NCBI RefSeq assembly: GCF_900142125.1
Contig: NZ_FQZT01000006.1
Location: 124,001 to 188,000 of the forward strand
Length of the DNA stretch: 64,000 nt
Direction: 5' to 3'
Source of the DNA: Malonomonas rubra DSM 5091
Lineage (GTDB): Bacteria > Desulfobacterota > Desulfuromonadia > Desulfuromonadales > Geopsychrobacteraceae
This document shows positions 4,546 through 55,095 of this stretch, piece after piece. A model generated the notes under the pieces. The model saw nothing but the letters and a program-made list of their open reading frames with translations, had not been told where the DNA came from and did not search any database. The position numbers and the translations under genes were made by a program. Within the stretch, counting starts at the first letter, position 1. Each line of letters opens with the position of its first letter.

Positions 4546-5814
4546 ATGGAGTTGTGGCAGACTGACCTGGCTGGAGGACTGAGCCAGGCGCATTCGCTGG
4601 TTTTTCTCGGACTGCTGTTATTGCTCAGTCATTTTGGCGGCAAAGTGGCCAACTATTTCAATGCCCCGCGGGTCACTGGCTACCTAGTCATAGGGATTTT
4701 GGTAAGTCCTTCTGTGCTGGGGGTCTTTCATGAACGGCTGGTCAAGGATGAACTAAGCCTGATCACCGATATGGCCCTTTCGATCATCGCGTTTTCCATC
4801 GGCGGGTCGCTGGGGGTCGCCAAGCTGAAAAAGCTCGGCAAGCAGATTCTTTGGATTACCTGCGCAGAAGCCTCGAGCGCTTTTATCGCTGTAACGCTTT
4901 TACTGCTTGTTACGTTCGGTGCTTTCAGCGCCTTGTCATCTTCGTTTTCAACTCTCCAATGGCCGGTCGCACTTCTGATTGGAGCTCTGAGTGCGGCAAC
5001 CGCGCCGGCAGCGACTTTGGCTATCATCCACGAATACAAGGCGCGAGGACCTTTGACTTCGGTTCTACTTGGTGTTGTAGCATTGGATGATGCTCTGGCG
5101 ATCCTTTTTTTCGCGTTCGCAAGTGCTGTTGCCGCAGGTCTGCTGCAACAGACCGCAGTCAGTTGGCAGCAAGTCGTGCTTGTCCCGGGTGTTTCCATTC
5201 TTCTGTCACTGCTTCTGGGCGGGGCTTTGGGGCTTGGGCTGCAAAAAGCCATACGCTTTGTGTCCCGTAAAAAAGCGCTTCCGGGCATGATGATCGGCAC
5301 GATCTTCCTACTGGGCGGTCTCGCCATCAGCCTGAAGGCCTCCCCTTTACTGGCCAATATGTCGCTCGGTTTTGTGGTCACCAATTTCGTGGAGCGACGT
5401 GATGACATGTTTGCTGCTGTCGAGGAGTTTGAAGAGCCGATTTTCGCCATGTTTTTTACCCTGGCTGGAGCTCACTTTGATTTCCGGGTCATCGAAGCTG
5501 CCGGTGGGCTGGCATTGCTCATCATTCTCGGTCGATTTGTCGGCAAACTGCTGGGAAGTCGGGTCGGTGCCCGCATTTCCGGCGCACCTGACTGCGTGAG
5601 AAACTATCTCGGTTTTGCGCTGTTGCCGAAAGCCGGGGTCACCGTAGGGCTGGTACTGGCCGCCGAAGAGATCTTCGGGCCGACTCTTCAGGCGGAAGTG
5701 ATGATCAACGCCGTCCTTGGATCGGTCATCATCAATGAATTGCTGACACCGTTTTTCGTCCGTTTTGCCTTGTCCAGGGCGGGGGAAATACACCAAAAGC
5801 AGAAGGCCCGTTGA
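4546..5814 (+). CDS. CPA2-type cation:proton antiporter
   Basis: A 422-residue, very hydrophobic protein with about 12 membrane segments. The N-terminal HFGGKVANYFNAPRVTGYL stretch is typical of KefB/NapA-like exchangers, and ALDDALAI supplies the paired aspartates of the transport core. It ends without a TrkA-N or other cytosolic domain. The family exchanges Na+ or K+ for H+ in the inner membrane. GAGAGG precedes the ATG. The CBS-domain gene begins just after its stop, so the two are probably co-translated. Ion preference is not readable. Confidence 0.9.
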   Translation: MELWQTDLAGGLSQAHSLVFLGLLLLLSHFGGKVANYFNAPRVTGYLVIGILVSPSVLGVFHERLVKDELSLITDMALSIIAFSIGGSLGVAKLKKLGKQILWITCAEASSAFIAVTLLLLVTFGAFSALSSSFSTLQWPVALLIGALSAATAPAATLAIIHEYKARGPLTSVLLGVVALDDALAILFFAFASAVAAGLLQQTAVSWQQVVLVPGVSILLSLLLGGALGLGLQKAIRFVSRKKALPGMMIGTIFLLGGLAISLKASPLLANMSLGFVVTNFVERRDDMFAAVEEFEEPIFAMFFTLAGAHFDFRVIEAAGGLALLIILGRFVGKLLGSRVGARISGAPDCVRNYLGFALLPKAGVTVGLVLAAEEIFGPTLQAEVMINAVLGSVIINELLTPFFVRFALSRAGEIHQKQKAR

Positions 5815-5822
5815 GGGAAAGG

Positions 5823-6293
5823 ATGGCAGGCATGGCACAGGAGGAAATTGTCCGCAGTTCAAAAATCAGCGAACTGGTGGCTCGCATCAAAACAAGGAAT
5901 CTGCCGCTGATTCCCGAAGACGCCAGCATCGCAGATGTGGTTGATGCCATGATTGATTATGAGCACAGCCGCCTGCTTTACGTGGTCAACAGCGAGGGTT
6001 GCCTTGTCGGCACCATCTCGCTGGGCCTGCTGGCTCGTCATGTCTTTTGTCCCAGCCATGAGCCACAGATTCATCCGCGGTTTCTCATCGATATGGTCAC
6101 CGCGGAATGTGCCAGAGATATCATGCAGAAAAATACCCTGAGTGCTCGTGACGGAGATGAAGTTGGCGCGCTACTGAAACGGATGCTCGGGGCAAATGTC
6201 AAAGAAGTTCCGGTTCTGGACAACTCCGGGCGGGTGACAGCAGATATCACGATTGTCGATTTGCTGCGTTTTTTGATCGTAGATGCCCACTGA
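5823..6293 (+). CDS. CBS-pair domain protein
   Basis: The ATG at 5823 is chosen for the GAGG ribosome site 6 bases upstream; it gives 156 residues. The protein is essentially one CBS pair: the first repeat spans about residues 15-75 (P-L-I-P-E-D-A-S-I and SRLLYVVN), the second about 95-155 (REVPVLDNSGRV-like). CBS pairs bind adenine nucleotides and gate partner proteins. It starts 8 bases after the antiporter stop, so it may act as a separate nucleotide-sensing regulator of that antiporter. This is inference from context. Confidence 0.85.
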   Translation: MAGMAQEEIVRSSKISELVARIKTRNLPLIPEDASIADVVDAMIDYEHSRLLYVVNSEGCLVGTISLGLLARHVFCPSHEPQIHPRFLIDMVTAECARDIMQKNTLSARDGDEVGALLKRMLGANVKEVPVLDNSGRVTADITIVDLLRFLIVDAH

Positions 6294-6336
6294 CCAGTTT
6301 CGGTTTGAGGGACGAGGAGGTATGTGAAGTAGCCTG

Positions 6337-6675
6337 TTACCCCAACTTGGCCCCGTTCTGCACGGCTCGCTCCGGCACTGCCAACACAACCGAGCGATCT
6401 TCCTGGTAGAAGCCTGTCAGCAGAAATTCTGAACGCATCGGCCCGATCTGTTTGACCGGGAAATTGACTACGCCGATAATCTGCCGACCGAGCAGATCTT
6501 CTTTGCTGTAAAGGTCGGTCACTTGCGCGCTCGATTTTTTGATACCGATCTCCGGGCCGAAGTCGACTTTGACTTTGTAGGCCGGGGTGCGTGCTTCCGG
6601 GAAATCCTCTACTTCGATGATGGTTCCGGTGCGGAGTTCGACCATTTCAAATTGCTGCCAGCTGATTTCTTCCAT
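6337..6675 (-). CDS. csaA: CsaA/YgjH-like tRNA-binding protein
   Basis: A 112-residue protein consisting of a single OB-fold tRNA-binding domain (the domain of the MetRS C-terminus and Trbp111). The signature [19 protein letters not shown] is near the start, and [18 protein letters not shown] follows. This length matches CsaA, a dimeric protein with chaperone-like and tRNA-binding activity in Bacillus. It stands alone and is convergent with the CBS gene. Confidence 0.9.
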
Positions 6676-6822
6676 CCTGCGTTGCTCCTGTTGTTCGTTT
6701 TCTGCTAGCGACCGGCATAACTTTAGGCATCAACGCGACTGGTCACCAGATACTTGCGCATATGCTCAGCCGTGGCCAGAGATAACCGCAATTGCGAACG
6801 GTTTTCTTGTACAAAATTGATC

Positions 6823-7647
6823 TCAGCCTAGAACCTGCTTGCGGTAGATGCCGGGGGTGACGCCGAATTTGTTTTTAAAGTGACGGGTCAGGTGGCTCTG
6901 GTCGGCGAAACCTGTTGCCAAGGCTGCATCGACCAGCGAATCCCCTTCGCTGATCAGCTGCTTCGCTTTCTCCAGTCTCATTTGGACCAAATAGGCGTGC
7001 GGCGCTATGCCGACCGCTTTTTTGAAGAAGCGGATCAAGTGGTAGGGGGTGCAATCAAACTGCTGTGCCAGCTCGCTCAGGCCGAAATCCTCTTCGATCT
7101 GTTCGTGGAACAGCTCGATAATCTTGTTCACCCGTTCTGTTTCCTGGCCGAATTTGGCTGAATTGATGGTTTTGGCGGTATGCCGGGAAATCAGCAGGGC
7201 CAGTAATTCAATAAAAGCGGTTTCTTTTTCCAGTTTGGAGTCGGAATGATAAAGGGTCTGGTGCAACTGGATAAGGCCAGCGTAGGCTTCGTTGTCCCGG
7301 TAAAAATCGGTGCGGAACTCGCAGTCGTCAGAATCGACATCACGGATTTGCGCAGCGAGCGACTGCAGTTGGGAGGGAGCAAGATAAAAGGTCAGCAGGT
7401 TGCGCCGGTCGTTTTCGCAAGCGTAATTTTCATGAACTTCTCCTGGGGCGATGATGCCGAAGTGGCCCGGCTGCAGAATTGAACTGTTTCCACTGTGGCG
7501 ATAACGTTCGCCACCACTGCTGTTGAGCCAGATACAGTAAGCGTCGTGAAAATGGGGAGGGAACAGGTAGTTGACGTCGGGGCAGCTGAGCAGTTCCAGC
7601 CCGCTTAGCCCTTCCGGTTTGAAATATCTGACTTGACAGTTCCTCAT
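6823..7647 (-). CDS. AraC family transcriptional regulator
   Basis: A 274-residue protein. Residues 1-150 are a cupin-type sensor domain (PPHFHDAYCIWL and the FGIIAPGEVHENYAC segment). Residues 170-270 hold the two helix-turn-helix motifs of AraC: LSELAQQFDCTPYHLIRFFK and the second motif ending in FGVTPGIYRKQ. Regulators with this layout often control nearby exporters such as RhtB/LysE proteins; the LysE gene here is 5 kb away, so that link is weak. The effector is unknown. Confidence 0.92.
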   Translation of the reverse strand: MRNCQVRYFKPEGLSGLELLSCPDVNYLFPPHFHDAYCIWLNSSGGERYRHSGNSSILQPGHFGIIAPGEVHENYACENDRRNLLTFYLAPSQLQSLAAQIRDVDSDDCEFRTDFYRDNEAYAGLIQLHQTLYHSDSKLEKETAFIELLALLISRHTAKTINSAKFGQETERVNKIIELFHEQIEEDFGLSELAQQFDCTPYHLIRFFKKAVGIAPHAYLVQMRLEKAKQLISEGDSLVDAALATGFADQSHLTRHFKNKFGVTPGIYRKQVLG

Positions 7648-49188: not shown

Positions 49189-50286
49189 TTAGACATCAAT
49201 GTGGTCCCGAATCCCTCGATGCTCAATCGTGTTGCCGTTGGCGTGCAGGCAGTTGTGTTTCACTCCCTTTAATGCTTTTGGTCGATAATCGACGATTTCT
49301 TTGATGCGCTCGATGGCAGTGTAATGAACCAACGGCAGCTCGTTGGGGGCGGGCTTGTCATTAATGTTTACCCGAACTTCACGTTCTGTGAGGGTGGCGC
49401 GGGCGATTGGCAGCCAACGGTCCTGAGTGTGGATTTTGCCGTGCAGGCGGGGTTTGATGAACAGGTCGTCGTAATCGAGTTGATATTTTTCCGCAGGAAC
49501 GCCCAACTTATTGAACTGCACATCGTCTGCCGATAGTACGGTCAGGCCCAGTTCACGCTTTTCGAGTTCTTTCAGCATGAAATCGAGGCTGATATCTGAA
49601 AGGCCATCAAACCAGAATCCGCCCCCGACATCGGAATGAGCGCCAGCGAACCAGACTTCAGTCACCCGATCTTCTTTATTCATCAGTGTTGGCAGAAAGG
49701 CAATCCGTTTGTCGTCCAGAGATACCAGGTGCAAGGCCTCCTGGACATGCCCGGAAACAGTGCAGTTTTCAAAAATCACATCGGATACAGGTTTGTCATC
49801 ATCGTCGAGGTTGGGAAAGCCGATGGCGGCGACTGTGTCGAATACGCCGATGAAGCGGACAACCTTGTCTTCCGGTTTGACCGGCACATATTTGTCGATG
49901 ACGGCTGCAAAGCGTCGCGCTAATGCAGCACCCCGGCTGAAGCCGAAGAGGAAGATGCGGTCATTCTTTTTATAGATCTTCTGGAGATCGTAACCCGCTT
50001 GTTTGATGATGCGGGCGACGTCCAGGTTGTTCGGAGCGAAAGCGGCATTGAAGAGCTGTTGTACTTTGTTGCCGTAGGTGCCGACGCCAGAGTAGTAGAG
50101 GCTGTGCTGCTGCTTGTTGTGGGGGCGGTTGTCGAGTGTGCCGCCCAGCAACAGGTGCAGCTTCAGAACATTGGTGATGCCCTTGTCATCGATGTCCCCC
50201 AATCCGAACCATTCGCGTTCCTGTTTTGCGCTCTTCGGATGGTTACATGTCCCGTCGAAGCAGATAATGATATTTTTGCCCGCCAT
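49189..50286 (-). CDS. DUF2235 alpha/beta hydrolase (Tle1-like)
   Basis: A 365-residue protein. NIIICFDGTCNHP at the start and the nucleophile elbow GFSRGAALAR near residue 115 mark DUF2235, and FAGAHSDVGGG supplies further family residues. Related proteins include type VI secretion phospholipase effectors (Tle1). No signal peptide, vgrG, PAAR or immunity gene is adjacent, so it may be an orphan or housekeeping lipase. The stop abuts the nhaA terminator. Substrate unknown. Confidence 0.85.
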   Translation of the reverse strand: MAGKNIIICFDGTCNHPKSAKQEREWFGLGDIDDKGITNVLKLHLLLGGTLDNRPHNKQQHSLYYSGVGTYGNKVQQLFNAAFAPNNLDVARIIKQAGYDLQKIYKKNDRIFLFGFSRGAALARRFAAVIDKYVPVKPEDKVVRFIGVFDTVAAIGFPNLDDDDKPVSDVIFENCTVSGHVQEALHLVSLDDKRIAFLPTLMNKEDRVTEVWFAGAHSDVGGGFWFDGLSDISLDFMLKELEKRELGLTVLSADDVQFNKLGVPAEKYQLDYDDLFIKPRLHGKIHTQDRWLPIARATLTEREVRVNINDKPAPNELPLVHYTAIERIKEIVDYRPKALKGVKHNCLHANGNTIEHRGIRDHIDV

Positions 50287-50509: not shown

Positions 50510-51733
50510 ATGCAGAACTTTCCCTTCCCTCTCAGCGCTATCGTCGGCCAGGACGCCATGAAGGCAGCATTGTTGCTCAACGCCGTTGATCCCAGTATTG
50601 GCGGTGTCCTGATTCGTGGCCAGAAAGGGACGGGGAAGTCGACCGCAGCGCGTGCGTTGGCTGCGCTCTTGCCTGCCATCGAGGTTGTTGCCGGTTGTCC
50701 CTACCAGTGTGATCCGGGGAATATAGAAAAACTGCACGACGGCTGCCGGGAAAAGCTGGAAAAAGGCGAACAGCTGGAGAGAACGAAACGGCCGATGCCG
50801 GTGGTTGAGCTGCCACTGAGCGCGTCAGAAGACCGGGTGGTCGGCAGTGTGCAATTGGAGCATGTACTCAAAACCGGGCAAAAGCGTTTTGAGCCTGGCC
50901 TGCTGGCTGCGGCGAATCGCGGCATTCTTTACGTCGATGAAGTCAACCTGCTGGAAGATCACCTGGTCGATCTGCTGCTCGATGCTGCTGCGTCCGGTGT
51001 AAACCGGGTTGAGCGGGAAGGGCTCTGCGTCACTCACCCGTCACGTTTTATGCTGATTGGCACCATGAACCCGGAAGAGGGTGAGCTGCGGCCGCAGTTT
51101 CTGGATCGCTTCGGTCTTGTGGTCAATGTCGAAGGGATTAGTGATCCACATCAGCGCCGGCAATTGATCGAAAATCGCATTGCTTATGAACAGAATCCGC
51201 AGGATTTCGTTGCCCGTTGGCAGCAGGAAGAACATTTCTTGGCTGCACAGGTGCAGCAGGCCCAAAGAAATCTGAACCAGGTGGTGATCCCGGAGGCCGC
51301 GTATGATCTGGTTGTCAAGCTGGCGATTGAGCTGCAGGTGCATGGCCACCGGGCAGATATCGCCCTGCTGAAGGTCGCCCGTGCGCTGGCAGCATTGCTC
51401 GGAAAGAAAGCGGTCAGCGTGGCTGAAGTCAAAGAAGCGGCCGCTTTTGTCCTGCCGCATCGCCTGCCGGGCGGGACTTTGCTGAACAGCGAAGCTGCCC
51501 GGAAAAATCTCGACGACGCCCTGGTGAGGGTGCTTGAAGGCAAGCCGGAGCAGGTTAGTCTTGATGATCAGGATCCCCTTGATGACCTTGACTTCATGTT
51601 GGTCGATTACGAGTTTCCTGGTTCCGCCGCCGCGGGAAGCATGCTGTTCCAGACGCTTAAAAAAAAACTTCACAGCGAATCGTCGATATCGACGACCAGC
51701 ACTGCCTCGCCCCAGTCAATATCGAGCAGCTGA
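50510..51733 (+). CDS. AAA+ chelatase subunit, zero-frame product of a chlD-type gene
   Basis: The ATG at 50510 follows AAAGG; the unshifted product has 407 residues. It is a ChlI/BchI-like AAA+ ATPase with Walker A GQKGTGKST (residues 37-45), Walker B ILYVDEVNLL and the sensor region DRFGLVVNVEG. After residue 386 an A9 run is met; the unshifted frame then runs 21 Ser/Thr-rich residues to a stop. A -1 shift on the A-run joins it to the VWA half, giving a 661-residue ChlD-type protein. Such proteins drive metal insertion by magnesium or cobalt chelatase. The large catalytic subunit (ChlH/CobN) is not in the window. Confidence 0.88.
   Translation: MQNFPFPLSAIVGQDAMKAALLLNAVDPSIGGVLIRGQKGTGKSTAARALAALLPAIEVVAGCPYQCDPGNIEKLHDGCREKLEKGEQLERTKRPMPVVELPLSASEDRVVGSVQLEHVLKTGQKRFEPGLLAAANRGILYVDEVNLLEDHLVDLLLDAAASGVNRVEREGLCVTHPSRFMLIGTMNPEEGELRPQFLDRFGLVVNVEGISDPHQRRQLIENRIAYEQNPQDFVARWQQEEHFLAAQVQQAQRNLNQVVIPEAAYDLVVKLAIELQVHGHRADIALLKVARALAALLGKKAVSVAEVKEAAAFVLPHRLPGGTLLNSEAARKNLDDALVRVLEGKPEQVSLDDQDPLDDLDFMLVDYEFPGSAAAGSMLFQTLKKKLHSESSISTTSTASPQSISSS
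51659..51695 (+). promoter_or_regulatory. candidate -1 ribosomal frameshift signal
   Basis: Nine A residues (51659-51667) are read as three AAA codons and offer an A-AAA-AAA slippery heptamer. Twelve bases later a perfect 16-base palindrome, TCGTCGATATCGACGA (51680-51695), can form a hairpin. A -1 slip gives exactly the frame of the VWA half. Confidence 0.7.
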
Positions 51734-52494
51734 GCTTTTCCCGTAACAGGTCCGGACGCCGCCGCAGTAAGGGCCGTGGCCGCGCTGGCCGTCATCTGCG
51801 CAGCCTGCCGCTGCGAGCCAATCAACCTGATGCAATCATCGATCTCCCTGCAACCCTGCGCGCCAGCTTGATCCGTGGTAGTGAGGTCGAATTAAGAGAC
51901 CTGCAGGCGAAGCAGTTTCTGCAGCGGCAGCGGGCGCTGATTGTTTTCGTGATAGATGCGTCCGAATCGATGGGGCAAGGCTCACTGGAGCGGATGAAGG
52001 CGGCAAAAGGAGCCATTCTCGGTCTGTTGACGGCGGCCTACCAGAATCGTGACCAGGTTGCGCTGGTCTCTTTCGGCGGCGAACGAGCACAGGTTTTATT
52101 GCGACCGACCTCCAGCGTGTTGCTCGCCCAGCAGCAGTTACGCAAGTTGCCGCTGGGGGGTGCGACGCCTTTTGCCGATGGACTCTGGCAAGGATGGCAG
52201 CTGATCCGCACGCAACGGCAAAAGCAGCCGAGCCTGCAGCCTTTGTTGGTGATTGTCTCCGATGGTGAAGCAAACCTGCCATTGTCCCCCGGGGGCAACG
52301 TTTACGATGAGCTGTTTGGCTTGGCCCTGCAGGTTGCCAGGGATCAGATTCAAAGTGTCGTGATCGACAGCCGCGGTGGTGTCGGCAACGAAAAGCTGCA
52401 GCAATTGGCTCGACGGTTGGGTGGCCGCTACACGCAGATTCGTGATTTGCACGCCGGGCGATTGATCGAAGCTGTGCAGACACTGGAGCGGTGA
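51667..52494 (+). CDS. VWA half of the chelatase subunit, reached by -1 frameshift
   Basis: In the -1 frame the reading is open from the A-run to a stop at 52494, 275 residues. A basic linker (NRSGRRRSKGRGRAGRH) typical of ChlD is followed by a von Willebrand A domain with the MIDAS motif FVIDASESMGQG and a later VSDGEANLP. An internal ATG at 51868 has no ribosome site and would cut off the linker, so separate translation is unlikely. ChlD VWA domains bind the AAA+ ring and the catalytic subunit. A sequencing loss of one A from A10 would give the same picture. Confidence 0.82.
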   Translation, partial: TSQRIVDIDDQHCLAPVNIEQLSFSRNRSGRRRSKGRGRAGRHLRSLPLRANQPDAIIDLPATLRASLIRGSEVELRDLQAKQFLQRQRALIVFVIDASESMGQGSLERMKAAKGAILGLLTAAYQNRDQVALVSFGGERAQVLLRPTSSVLLAQQQLRKLPLGGATPFADGLWQGWQLIRTQRQKQPSLQPLLVIVSDGEANLPLSPGGNVYDELFGLALQVARDQIQSVVIDSRGGVGNEKLQQLARRLGGRYTQIRDLHAGRLIEAVQTLER

Positions 52495-52583
52495 ATGATT
52501 GACCAAAATGGTCAGAAAACGCTATTGTTGAAATAATATATTCATGATTTTTTAACGACTTGCAGCCGGAAAAGATAGGTGCC

Positions 52584-54752
52584 ATGTCCGAACATTCAAC
52601 ATGTGGCAGCCAGTGTTGCTGTGCTCATGCGGCGGGAGATGACTGCCGTATCGATAACCCTTTGACCAGCGCCAGTTGCCGTTTCTCCCTGCAGGGTCTC
52701 GGTTGTGCGAGTTGCGCCGGGAAAATAGAAGCCGCGGTGCAGGAGTTGCCCCATGTCAGCGAGGCTTACCTGAATTTTACAGCAGGAAGCCTGCGAGTTG
52801 ACTCACCTCAGCCCTGCCATCAGCTTCTGCGGGAAGTCCGCGAGATCGTCGAGCGGTTTGAACCGGGTGTGGCTGTTCGGCCCTGGGCTGAAGCGAAGGT
52901 TGAAGAGCCAGGTAGCCGAATAAAAAATCAGATAATAAGGCTATCTATCGGTGCCGCGCTTTTTATTTTAGCATTTTTGGTCGATAGCTATATTAGCTCC
53001 ACAGCGGCTGTAGTTTGTTTCCTGGCCAGTTATGCGATCACAGGTGGATCGGTGCTTTGGGCAGCACAGAACAATCTGCGACGCGGTGGTTGGTTCGACG
53101 AACACTTCCTCATGTCGATTGCAACGGTAGGTGCGCTTTTTCTTGGAGAATATGCAGAAGCCGTAGCTGTCATGATCTTCTATCTGCTCGGCGAGATTGT
53201 TCAGGGTCGAGCCGTGGATCATTCACGCCGCGAGATCTCCGCCCTGCTCAATATCCGGCCTGATAGTGCAAACCTGCTGGAAGGTCATCAAGTTCGCGTG
53301 GTGCCACCGGAGGAGATTAGTATCGGTCAGATGATTCTGGTGAGGCCTGGTGAACGTGTTCCGCTCGATGGCATTATCGTCGAAGGCGAGAGTTTACTCG
53401 ACAGCTCGGCTTTGACCGGTGAGTCTCGCCCACGCCGATTGACAGTTGGGGATGAAGTGTTGGCCGGCCTGATTAATAATACTTCAAGCCTGACACTGAG
53501 AGTTGTCAAGCTTTCTGCTGAATCATCTTTGACTCGTGTCATTGAACTGGTCGAGCAGGCGAGTGAGAAAAAAGCCAACACAGAACGTTTTATCACCCGC
53601 TTCGCTCGTATTTACACCCCTGCAGTTGTGCTGATCGCGGCATTGATTGCGCTGCTGCCGCCTATCTTTGTCGGTAGTTGGGGGGACTGGTTTTATCGTG
53701 CGCTGATCTTTCTGGTTGTTTCCTGCCCCTGTGCTTTGTTGATATCGATTCCTCTCGGCTTTTTCGGTGGCATTGGCCGAGCTTCGAAACAGGGAATTCT
53801 GGTCAAAGGTGGGAATTATCTTGAAGCATTGGCTCAGACTGAGTCGGTTGTTTTTGATAAAACCGGCACCTTGACTGAAGGTGTTTTCGATTTACAAAAG
53901 ATCTTTCCTGCAAATGGTTTTTCAGCCGACGAAGTTCTTGAACTGGCTGCGTTGGCGGAGATCGATTCCAACCATCCGATTGCCGAATCGATTCGATCTG
54001 CTCACACTAAAAAGCTGAGTAGATCGCGACTGAAGGGTTTGCAGGAGATCGCAGGTTTCGGTATCTCAGTGCAGATTGATGAACGCTCGGTTCTGCTCGG
54101 TCAGCGTAAATTGTTGGAGCAAGAGGGGATCGATGTGCCTGAGGCAGAAGAAATCGGTAGCCCGGTATTTCTCGCTGTTGGTGGCAAATATGCTGGAGCA
54201 TTGATCATCTCCGATCGTTTGCGGGAAGGATCAGCTGCTGCTGTGGCTGCCCTGCGAAAGATGGGAGTGCGAAAAGTTCGCATGCTTAGCGGTGATCGTC
54301 AGCAGGAGGCCGCGCGGATTGCGGATGAACTGCAATTAGACGGCTGGAAAGCAGAACTGTTGCCGGAGCAGAAATTGACGGCGCTGGAAAACTATCAGCA
54401 GAAATGCCGCCACGGGCGACTGGTTATGGTTGGTGACGGTATCAACGACGCGCCGGTTCTGGCGCGGGCTGATATCGGCGTCGCCATGGGAGGTCTCGGC
54501 AGCGATGCAGCCATTGAGGCGGCTGATGTGGTGCTGATGACCGATGAGCCGGGGAAGCTGGCTGAAGCGATAGAAACCGCGCGGCTGACACGGCGGATCG
54601 TCTGGCAGAATATCTCTCTCGCCTTTGTCGCCAAATGCGCTGTTATGTTGCTCGGTCTGTTCGGCTTGGCGACCATCTGGCAGGCCATTTTTGCTGATGT
54701 CGGTGTGGCGCTGTTGGCAGTCTTAAATGCCGTGCGTATTATCAAGGTGTGA
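52584..54752 (+). CDS. Zn/Cd/Pb-type P1B ATPase
   Basis: The ATG at 52584 gives 722 residues. A Cys-rich tip (CGSQCCCAH) precedes one heavy-metal domain (GLGCASCAGK, about residues 35-100). Then come the TGES loop, the CPC membrane motif (VVSCPCALL), the phosphorylation site DKTGTLTEG and the hinge GDGINDAP. The last helices contain the lysine (FVAKCAV) and aspartate (FADVGVALL) typical of Zn, Cd and Pb exporters rather than Cu pumps. It detoxifies the cytoplasm. A PAS protein gene begins 1 base past its stop. Confidence 0.94.
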   Translation: MSEHSTCGSQCCCAHAAGDDCRIDNPLTSASCRFSLQGLGCASCAGKIEAAVQELPHVSEAYLNFTAGSLRVDSPQPCHQLLREVREIVERFEPGVAVRPWAEAKVEEPGSRIKNQIIRLSIGAALFILAFLVDSYISSTAAVVCFLASYAITGGSVLWAAQNNLRRGGWFDEHFLMSIATVGALFLGEYAEAVAVMIFYLLGEIVQGRAVDHSRREISALLNIRPDSANLLEGHQVRVVPPEEISIGQMILVRPGERVPLDGIIVEGESLLDSSALTGESRPRRLTVGDEVLAGLINNTSSLTLRVVKLSAESSLTRVIELVEQASEKKANTERFITRFARIYTPAVVLIAALIALLPPIFVGSWGDWFYRALIFLVVSCPCALLISIPLGFFGGIGRASKQGILVKGGNYLEALAQTESVVFDKTGTLTEGVFDLQKIFPANGFSADEVLELAALAEIDSNHPIAESIRSAHTKKLSRSRLKGLQEIAGFGISVQIDERSVLLGQRKLLEQEGIDVPEAEEIGSPVFLAVGGKYAGALIISDRLREGSAAAVAALRKMGVRKVRMLSGDRQQEAARIADELQLDGWKAELLPEQKLTALENYQQKCRHGRLVMVGDGINDAPVLARADIGVAMGGLGSDAAIEAADVVLMTDEPGKLAEAIETARLTRRIVWQNISLAFVAKCAVMLLGLFGLATIWQAIFADVGVALLAVLNAVRIIKV

Positions 54753-54753
54753 T

Positions 54754-55095
54754 ATGAATGATTTTGCATCCCTGGCCTTTTTTCACGACCTGCTAGACAG
54801 CGTCAAGGAGCCGGTGCTCTTTGCCGATACCGATCACGTTGTCCGTTATCTCAACAAGGCGGCGGTAGAATTTTATCCCAACGGAAACAACCTGCTCGGC
54901 TGTGATTTGCTCGAATGCCACAATGAAAATTCGCGTAAGCAGCTGCGCGATATTTTGCAACAGATGGCAGAAGGGCTGGAAGAAATTCTTATCAGCGATA
55001 ATGAAAAACGGCGCCTTTACATGCGCGCCGTTCGTAACGGTGCAGGGGAACTTATCGGTTACTTCGAGCGTTTTGAGCCGCCTCGAGGCAGTTAG
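54754..55095 (+). CDS. PAS-domain-only small protein
   Basis: A 113-residue protein starting MNDFASLAFF that consists of one PAS-like domain: LLDSVKEPVLFADTDHVVRYLNKAA followed by the GCDLLECHNENSR helix and a terminal strand. It has a cysteine and a histidine in the CHNENS segment, as in some heme or redox PAS domains. It is coupled to the metal ATPase gene by a 1-base gap. No output domain is present, so it would have to work through a partner. Confidence 0.8.
   Translation: MNDFASLAFFHDLLDSVKEPVLFADTDHVVRYLNKAAVEFYPNGNNLLGCDLLECHNENSRKQLRDILQQMAEGLEEILISDNEKRRLYMRAVRNGAGELIGYFERFEPPRGS

Follow-up and report, generated by a model that had tools for sequence, protein, structure and literature searches.

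A chlD-type gene with a conserved -1 offset at an A9 run probably encodes a free-standing AAA+/VWA pair

The window, a 64-kb stretch of genome G000 (contig 26, positions 124001-188000), contains one plus-strand gene in which an AAA+ half is joined to a VWA half via a -1 offset at a run of nine A's. The 0 frame (50510..51733) begins with the ATG at 50510 and extends for 407 codons to the TGA at 51731-51733, encoding a ChlI-like AAA+ domain and its lid, followed by a linker segment and 21 tail residues. The A9 run (51659..51667) lies in the 0-frame register AAA AAA AAA, within the context CTT AAA AAA AAA CTT, and contains A_AAA_AAA. The segment before the run (51614..51667) encodes FPGSAAAGSMLFQTLKKK, and the 21 codons between the run and the 0-frame stop encode LHSESSISTTSTASPQSISSS. 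The -1 frame after the run (51667..52494) encodes a ChlD-type linker and a VWA domain. A -1-frame TAA (51658..51660) adjoins the run and the -1 frame is then open to the stop at 52494; a slip from the 0 frame to the -1 frame is therefore possible only on the run. With the 0-frame start and with KKK read before the slip, the long product would be about 660-661 aa. Nowhere else in the window do nine or more A's or T's follow one another. A preliminary description had proposed that the two halves form one gene joined by a -1 shift on A9, with the 0 frame ending 21 codons past the run and an uninterrupted -1 frame carrying the ChlD linker and the VWA domain, and the reading frames bear this out.

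The best family match of both halves, which were scored separately, is the putative-cobaltochelatase family TIGR02442, with 474.7 bits for the AAA+ half (profile positions 1-317 of 641) and 192.3 bits for the VWA half (positions 393-640) against a cut-off of 779.45. The AAA+ half also matches the ChlI family TIGR02030 at 408.9 bits, which is under the curated cut-off of 466.95, and VWA_2 is matched at 50.2 bits in the -1-frame half. Among solved structures, those of ChlI and BchI (6l8d, 8osf, and 1g8p) align with the AAA+ half and that of BchD (2x31) aligns with the VWA half. The AAA+ half carries the P-loop GQKGTGKST as well as ILYVDEVNLLEDH and NPEEGELRPQFLDRFG, and the VWA half carries DASES and SDGE; the roles of these motifs are putative. 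The matches to the ChlI and ChlD families and structures agree with the earlier suggestion of a 407-residue ChlI-like product and a 661-residue ChlD-like product.

Members of the gene's clade were found in 22 of the 136 genomes of the order (hereafter carriers; G000 is one of them), in two Desulfofustis genomes, and in one Spirochaetales genome. The G003 gene is cut before its second half, leaving 24 readable genes. Comparison of the run in relatives had been proposed in the preliminary description, and all 24 readable genes show the -1 offset of the second half at the run, which is A9 in 18 genes and A10 in 6; no single-frame version was found among them. A PG-centred version of the segment before the run is likewise present in 24/24, and a -1-frame stop adjoins the run in 14/24. 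In the 18 genes with an in-phase run, the run codons are all AAA (18/18), while the Lys codons upstream are 89 AAA versus 125 AAG; the log10 chance of all-AAA run codons is -9.8 for eight lineage representatives, if these are independent. Two offset-bearing genes come from genomes of one contig (G042) and two contigs (G045). Homopolymers are both error-prone and mutable, and a sequencing error, a pseudogene, or an on/off (phase-variable) run could in principle produce such an offset. However, the kept offset, found also in the one- and two-contig genomes, and the fixed AAA codons make these explanations very unlikely indeed, the least probable of those considered here. The Ser-rich 0-frame tail is common only to the window gene and its nearest relative, G082, and the other tails differ in length and sequence; the tail was accordingly rejected as a functional element. 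Among the matches listed from 395 genomes across the phylum, only four, all in the window's order, reach query residue 386 or 387.

The preliminary description had cited programmed frameshifting in chlD-type genes, and this precedent is real (PMC3711429 and PMC9227772). Antonov 2013 (PMC3711429) described 23 magnesium-chelatase genes with a -1 shift in six genera, and three cassettes gave 63, 40, and 10% frameshifting in Escherichia coli with 11, 9, and 7 A's, respectively. Frameshifted chlD genes (fs-chlD) are seen as a one-gene source of the small and medium subunits in Kuznetsov 2022 (PMC9227772). The frameshift mechanism is thus already known for this gene family, and the window gene fits that kind. 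We infer that the gene slips on the A9 run, most likely by -1 ribosomal frameshifting on A_AAA_AAA, with RNA polymerase slippage also possible. The two products would be an AAA+ small subunit of 407 aa and an AAA+/linker/VWA medium subunit of 661 aa, which may assemble with each other. Both would come from one gene, so the site would set their ratio. Re-initiation past the 0-frame stop would instead make the VWA half a separate protein. The two halves do overlap on one strand, but the first -1-frame starts in the window lie 135 (TTG), 216 (GTG), and 237 (ATG) bases past the stop, and an ATG or GTG lies within -30 to +20 of the stop in just 2/24 clade genes. We regard this route as highly unlikely.

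A perfect 16-base palindrome (51680..51695), one of four in the 64-kb window, begins 12 bases past the run, as the preliminary description had noted, and could form a hairpin. A downstream stimulatory RNA structure is described as usual for frameshifted chlD genes in Kuznetsov 2022 (PMC9227772). The folding z score of the 30-nt piece was -2.95 in the window, -2.12 in G082, +1.34 in G083, and -0.43 in G081; that of a 102-nt window piece was -0.42. Of all window positions, 2.1% have a perfect 6-pair stem that starts 5 to 15 bases downstream. The inner stem is present in the window and in G082, and the outer 6-pair stem is whole in G081, G082, and G083. Since each of these four same-genus genes has a 6-pair stem, inner or outer, it is possible that a stem aids the slip at the genus level. 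Across the clade the stem is not kept and the mean folding z score over the 24 genes was -0.12 to -0.50 at four lengths, so the palindrome is not supported as a clade-wide conserved stimulator and would be at most a local one. In three Chloroflexota genes (L057, L066, and L084), an 8-pair stem lies just past an A8 run and shows paired changes, with GATCG/CGATC in one gene and GACCG/CGGTC in the others. As a candidate stimulatory hairpin, this stem is stronger than the window palindrome.

The lack of a clade-wide stimulatory structure is also a point in favor of slippage by RNA polymerase rather than by the ribosome, which would give the same two products. A9 is long enough for this, and Thermus dnaX is cited as slipping at transcription on nine A's (PMC3711429). 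Against it, A_AAA_AA[A/G] stands in the 0-frame register in 42/42 frameshifted genes. A run of A9 or longer yields this register in any phase, however, so that only the four genes with A7-A8 runs carry weight. The sequence by itself fits both mechanisms; we consider polymerase slippage less likely than ribosomal frameshifting, though it is the strongest of the alternatives.

The preliminary description had suggested that the two products serve a chelatase that is probably CobN-type. No match to PF02514 (CobN/ChlH) was found in G000, which is 100% complete, and neither a separate small-subunit gene nor a second ChlI or ChlD was found there beyond one weak 69-residue match. In the order as a whole, PF02514 matched in 8/136 genomes. 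Two of the 22 carriers (G072 and G008) are among these, both with matches cut by contig ends, and the other 20 had no match; of the 12 carriers with a completeness of 90% or more and a contamination of 5% or less, 11 had none. The same search, which could miss a strongly diverged large subunit, recovers full-length CobN in G077 and G015. In G015, ChlI and an unshifted ChlD are on the same contig as CobN, and in G077, ChlI adjoins a ChlD whose visible part is single-frame. Four genomes of genus g23 (G032, G033, G035, and G036) present the reverse case, with CobN frames of about 1,316 to 1,330 aa and no strong match to the ChlI-like half.

G000 possesses CbiK (236 bits) and CbiD, with no match to CbiX, which we take to indicate the anaerobic B12 route with a one-subunit chelatase. 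CbiD was found in 11/22 carriers (G000, G041, G042, G045, G073, G082, G083, G087, G090, G125, and G132), compared with 78/136 genomes of the order overall. Near full-length CbiK was found in 7/22 carriers (G000, G045, G073, G081, G083, G087, and G125). With CbiD in only half of the carriers and CbiK in fewer, the distribution of the gene does not follow that of de novo B12 synthesis, although some of these genomes are incomplete.

We additionally examined a wider sample made up of the best 80 of at least 592 relatives. PF02514 was checked in the named genomes of 45 of these 80, namely 23 whose -1 offset was clear and 22 more chosen by hand, all picked before the result was seen. The frameshifted set includes L006 and L007, which are G087 and G127 of the order, and excludes L013, in which even the AAA half is divided between two frames. 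L013 is the chlD of Syntrophaceticus schinkii (792-1743), and its divided state may reflect an error in the draft or a broken gene. No PF02514 match was found in 18/23 genomes with a frameshifted gene versus 4/22 with an unshifted gene (Fisher P = 8e-5, a value that ignores shared ancestry and genome completeness).

On a 133-row tree of the AAA+ domain, the window gene falls in a 25-row clade (SH-aLRT 99) in which 23 rows were scored as frameshifted. The other two (L106 and L137) were scored "I" because they lack the second half or have too little of it to pass the threshold, although L137 (G132) does carry the -1 offset. A second clade consists of 11 frameshifted Chloroflexota genes, none of them (0/11) in a genome with a CobN match. 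A third clade, from Herpetosiphon, Roseiflexaceae, and Thermoflexus, holds six frameshifted genes and one unshifted gene; the genomes of 5/6 of the frameshifted genes have a CobN match, one of which is a 78-position fragment. A single long-branch frameshifted row, L083, is placed elsewhere. A 100-row tree was made by dropping 33/133 rows (long branches, L083 being the one frameshifted row among them; near-copies; rows from cut contigs; and a few isolated ones), and support for the window clade there was 99.9. A single clade for all frameshifted genes was rejected on this pruned tree (P = 0.017). The frameshift label had to change at least 7 times on the 133-row tree, with starred branches forcing 4 of the changes, and at least 3 times on the 100-row tree; repeated gain and loss fit these counts alike.

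The surroundings of the gene were examined for a partner. As context only, the gene is followed on the plus strand by a heavy-metal P-type ATPase (HMA and E1-E2 ATPase; 52560..54752), which lies downstream of chlD in the four same-genus carriers, and by a small PAS-domain protein (54727..55095) with a relative near chlD in five carriers. On the other side, a Tle1-like catalytic-domain protein (type VI secretion phospholipase effector family) adjoins the gene on the minus strand (49189-50286). The other carriers have different neighbors, among them a ClC channel with a NUDIX gene and an MFS transporter. In L122 (G074, 6272-7508) and L124 (G072, 5021-6665), the genes after chlD encode a small PAS protein and LarA, of the nickel-pincer lactate racemase family. 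LarA was rejected as a partner; Lar_N occurs in 100/136 genomes of the order, and LarA is too widespread there to be informative. No neighbor cluster occurred in more than 5 of 25 loci. These loci cover 23 different members of the clade, since L006 and L127 come from the same genome and L138 is a CobN-bearing control. Among 17 other frameshifted loci, the neighbor shared most often occurs in 4 loci, all of the Herpetosiphon-type clade; this gene, of 436 to 657 aa, lies downstream of the frameshifted chlD in L012, L055, L065, and L072. The neighborhood thus yielded no conserved partner gene.

Taken together, CobN/ChlH was not found in G000 or in nearly all of the clade, which suggests that the pair is most likely a free-standing AAA+/VWA complex acting on another client. 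We consider it probable that the gene slips on A9 to give two products acting as a free-standing AAA+/VWA remodelling pair, and not as part of a tetrapyrrole chelatase. Our confidence that the gene gives two products is higher than that in this statement as a whole, and we infer the non-chelatase role from the distribution of the large subunit. Counted against this reading are the CobN sequences in G072 and G008, the third frameshifted clade, which mostly does have CobN (5/6), the best family match, which is still TIGR02442, and the finding of no conserved partner gene. Apart from the last, the same observations favor the alternative that the products are subunits of a CobN-type cobaltochelatase, the model of Antonov 2020 as cited in PMC9227772. 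However, the lack of a PF02514 match in the complete G000 and in 20/22 carriers, together with CbiK and CbiD in G000 and the lack of CbiD in half of the carriers, makes this model improbable here, and the earlier "probably CobN-type" assignment was not borne out.

Genomes with frameshifted chlD and no large subunit were already noted by Kuznetsov 2022 (PMC9227772), where the function is called unexplored. We found no report of a frameshifted chelatase in Desulfuromonas in the literature searched, outside of which most subscription journals lie. Most close relatives lack a CobN/ChlH match (20/22 in the order and 18/23 named frameshifted genomes, two of which are among the 22), so this branch is not accounted for by the published idea that slippage supplies two subunits of a cobaltochelatase. 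The window gene is of interest mainly as part of this large branch mostly without CobN. On balance, we lean towards the broader view that, where CobN is absent, frameshifted ChlI/ChlD forms a distinct AAA+/MIDAS machine of two subunits that is maintained for a client of its own and is not the relic of a chelatase. It would occur in at least two separate clades (the Desulfuromonadales-type clade with a few others, and Chloroflexota), with slippage setting the subunit ratio. Should the pair prove to be a free-standing ATPase machine, the carriers could offer a way to identify the client and to explore what makes separate clades retain the slippery run.

The window gene resembles the frameshifted chlD genes described in PMC3711429 and PMC9227772 in having AAA+ and VWA halves in overlapping frames, an A-rich -1 site, and no separate small-subunit gene. 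In contrast to the model tested there, in which the products serve CobN, the search here found no CobN/ChlH and the genome carries both CbiK and CbiD; nor is the downstream structure conserved in the window clade. The "stage 1" genomes of PMC9227772, Spirochaeta thermophila and Brevefilum fermentans, have frameshifted chlD and no large subunit, as does the window genome by our search. However, B12 synthesis is absent in them, whereas the window genome has CbiK and CbiD; the 11/22 carriers without CbiD, several of them incomplete, are closer to the stage 1 genomes. Frameshifted chlD without a large subunit alongside CbiK and CbiD is a combination that does not appear in the available part of Kuznetsov 2022 (PMC9227772). 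The Mg-chelatase subunits ChlI/ChlD (BchI/BchD) share the fold family and motifs, and ChlI and BchD are the best structure matches. They are encoded by two genes rather than one, ChlH was not found by PF02514, which covers it, and TIGR02030 scored under its cut-off. RavA/ViaA, NorQ/NorD, and CbbQ/CbbO are free-standing pairs of a MoxR-type AAA+ protein and a VWA protein without a chelatase subunit, each encoded by two genes. They serve as our working model, an AAA+ motor teamed with a VWA protein, but they belong to other subfamilies and differ from the one-gene arrangement here. In E. coli dnaX, the frameshift gives the short product, whereas in the window gene the shift would give the long one. 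The likeness to dnaX gamma/tau is that a long and a short product come from one gene by slippage on an A run (PMC3711429).
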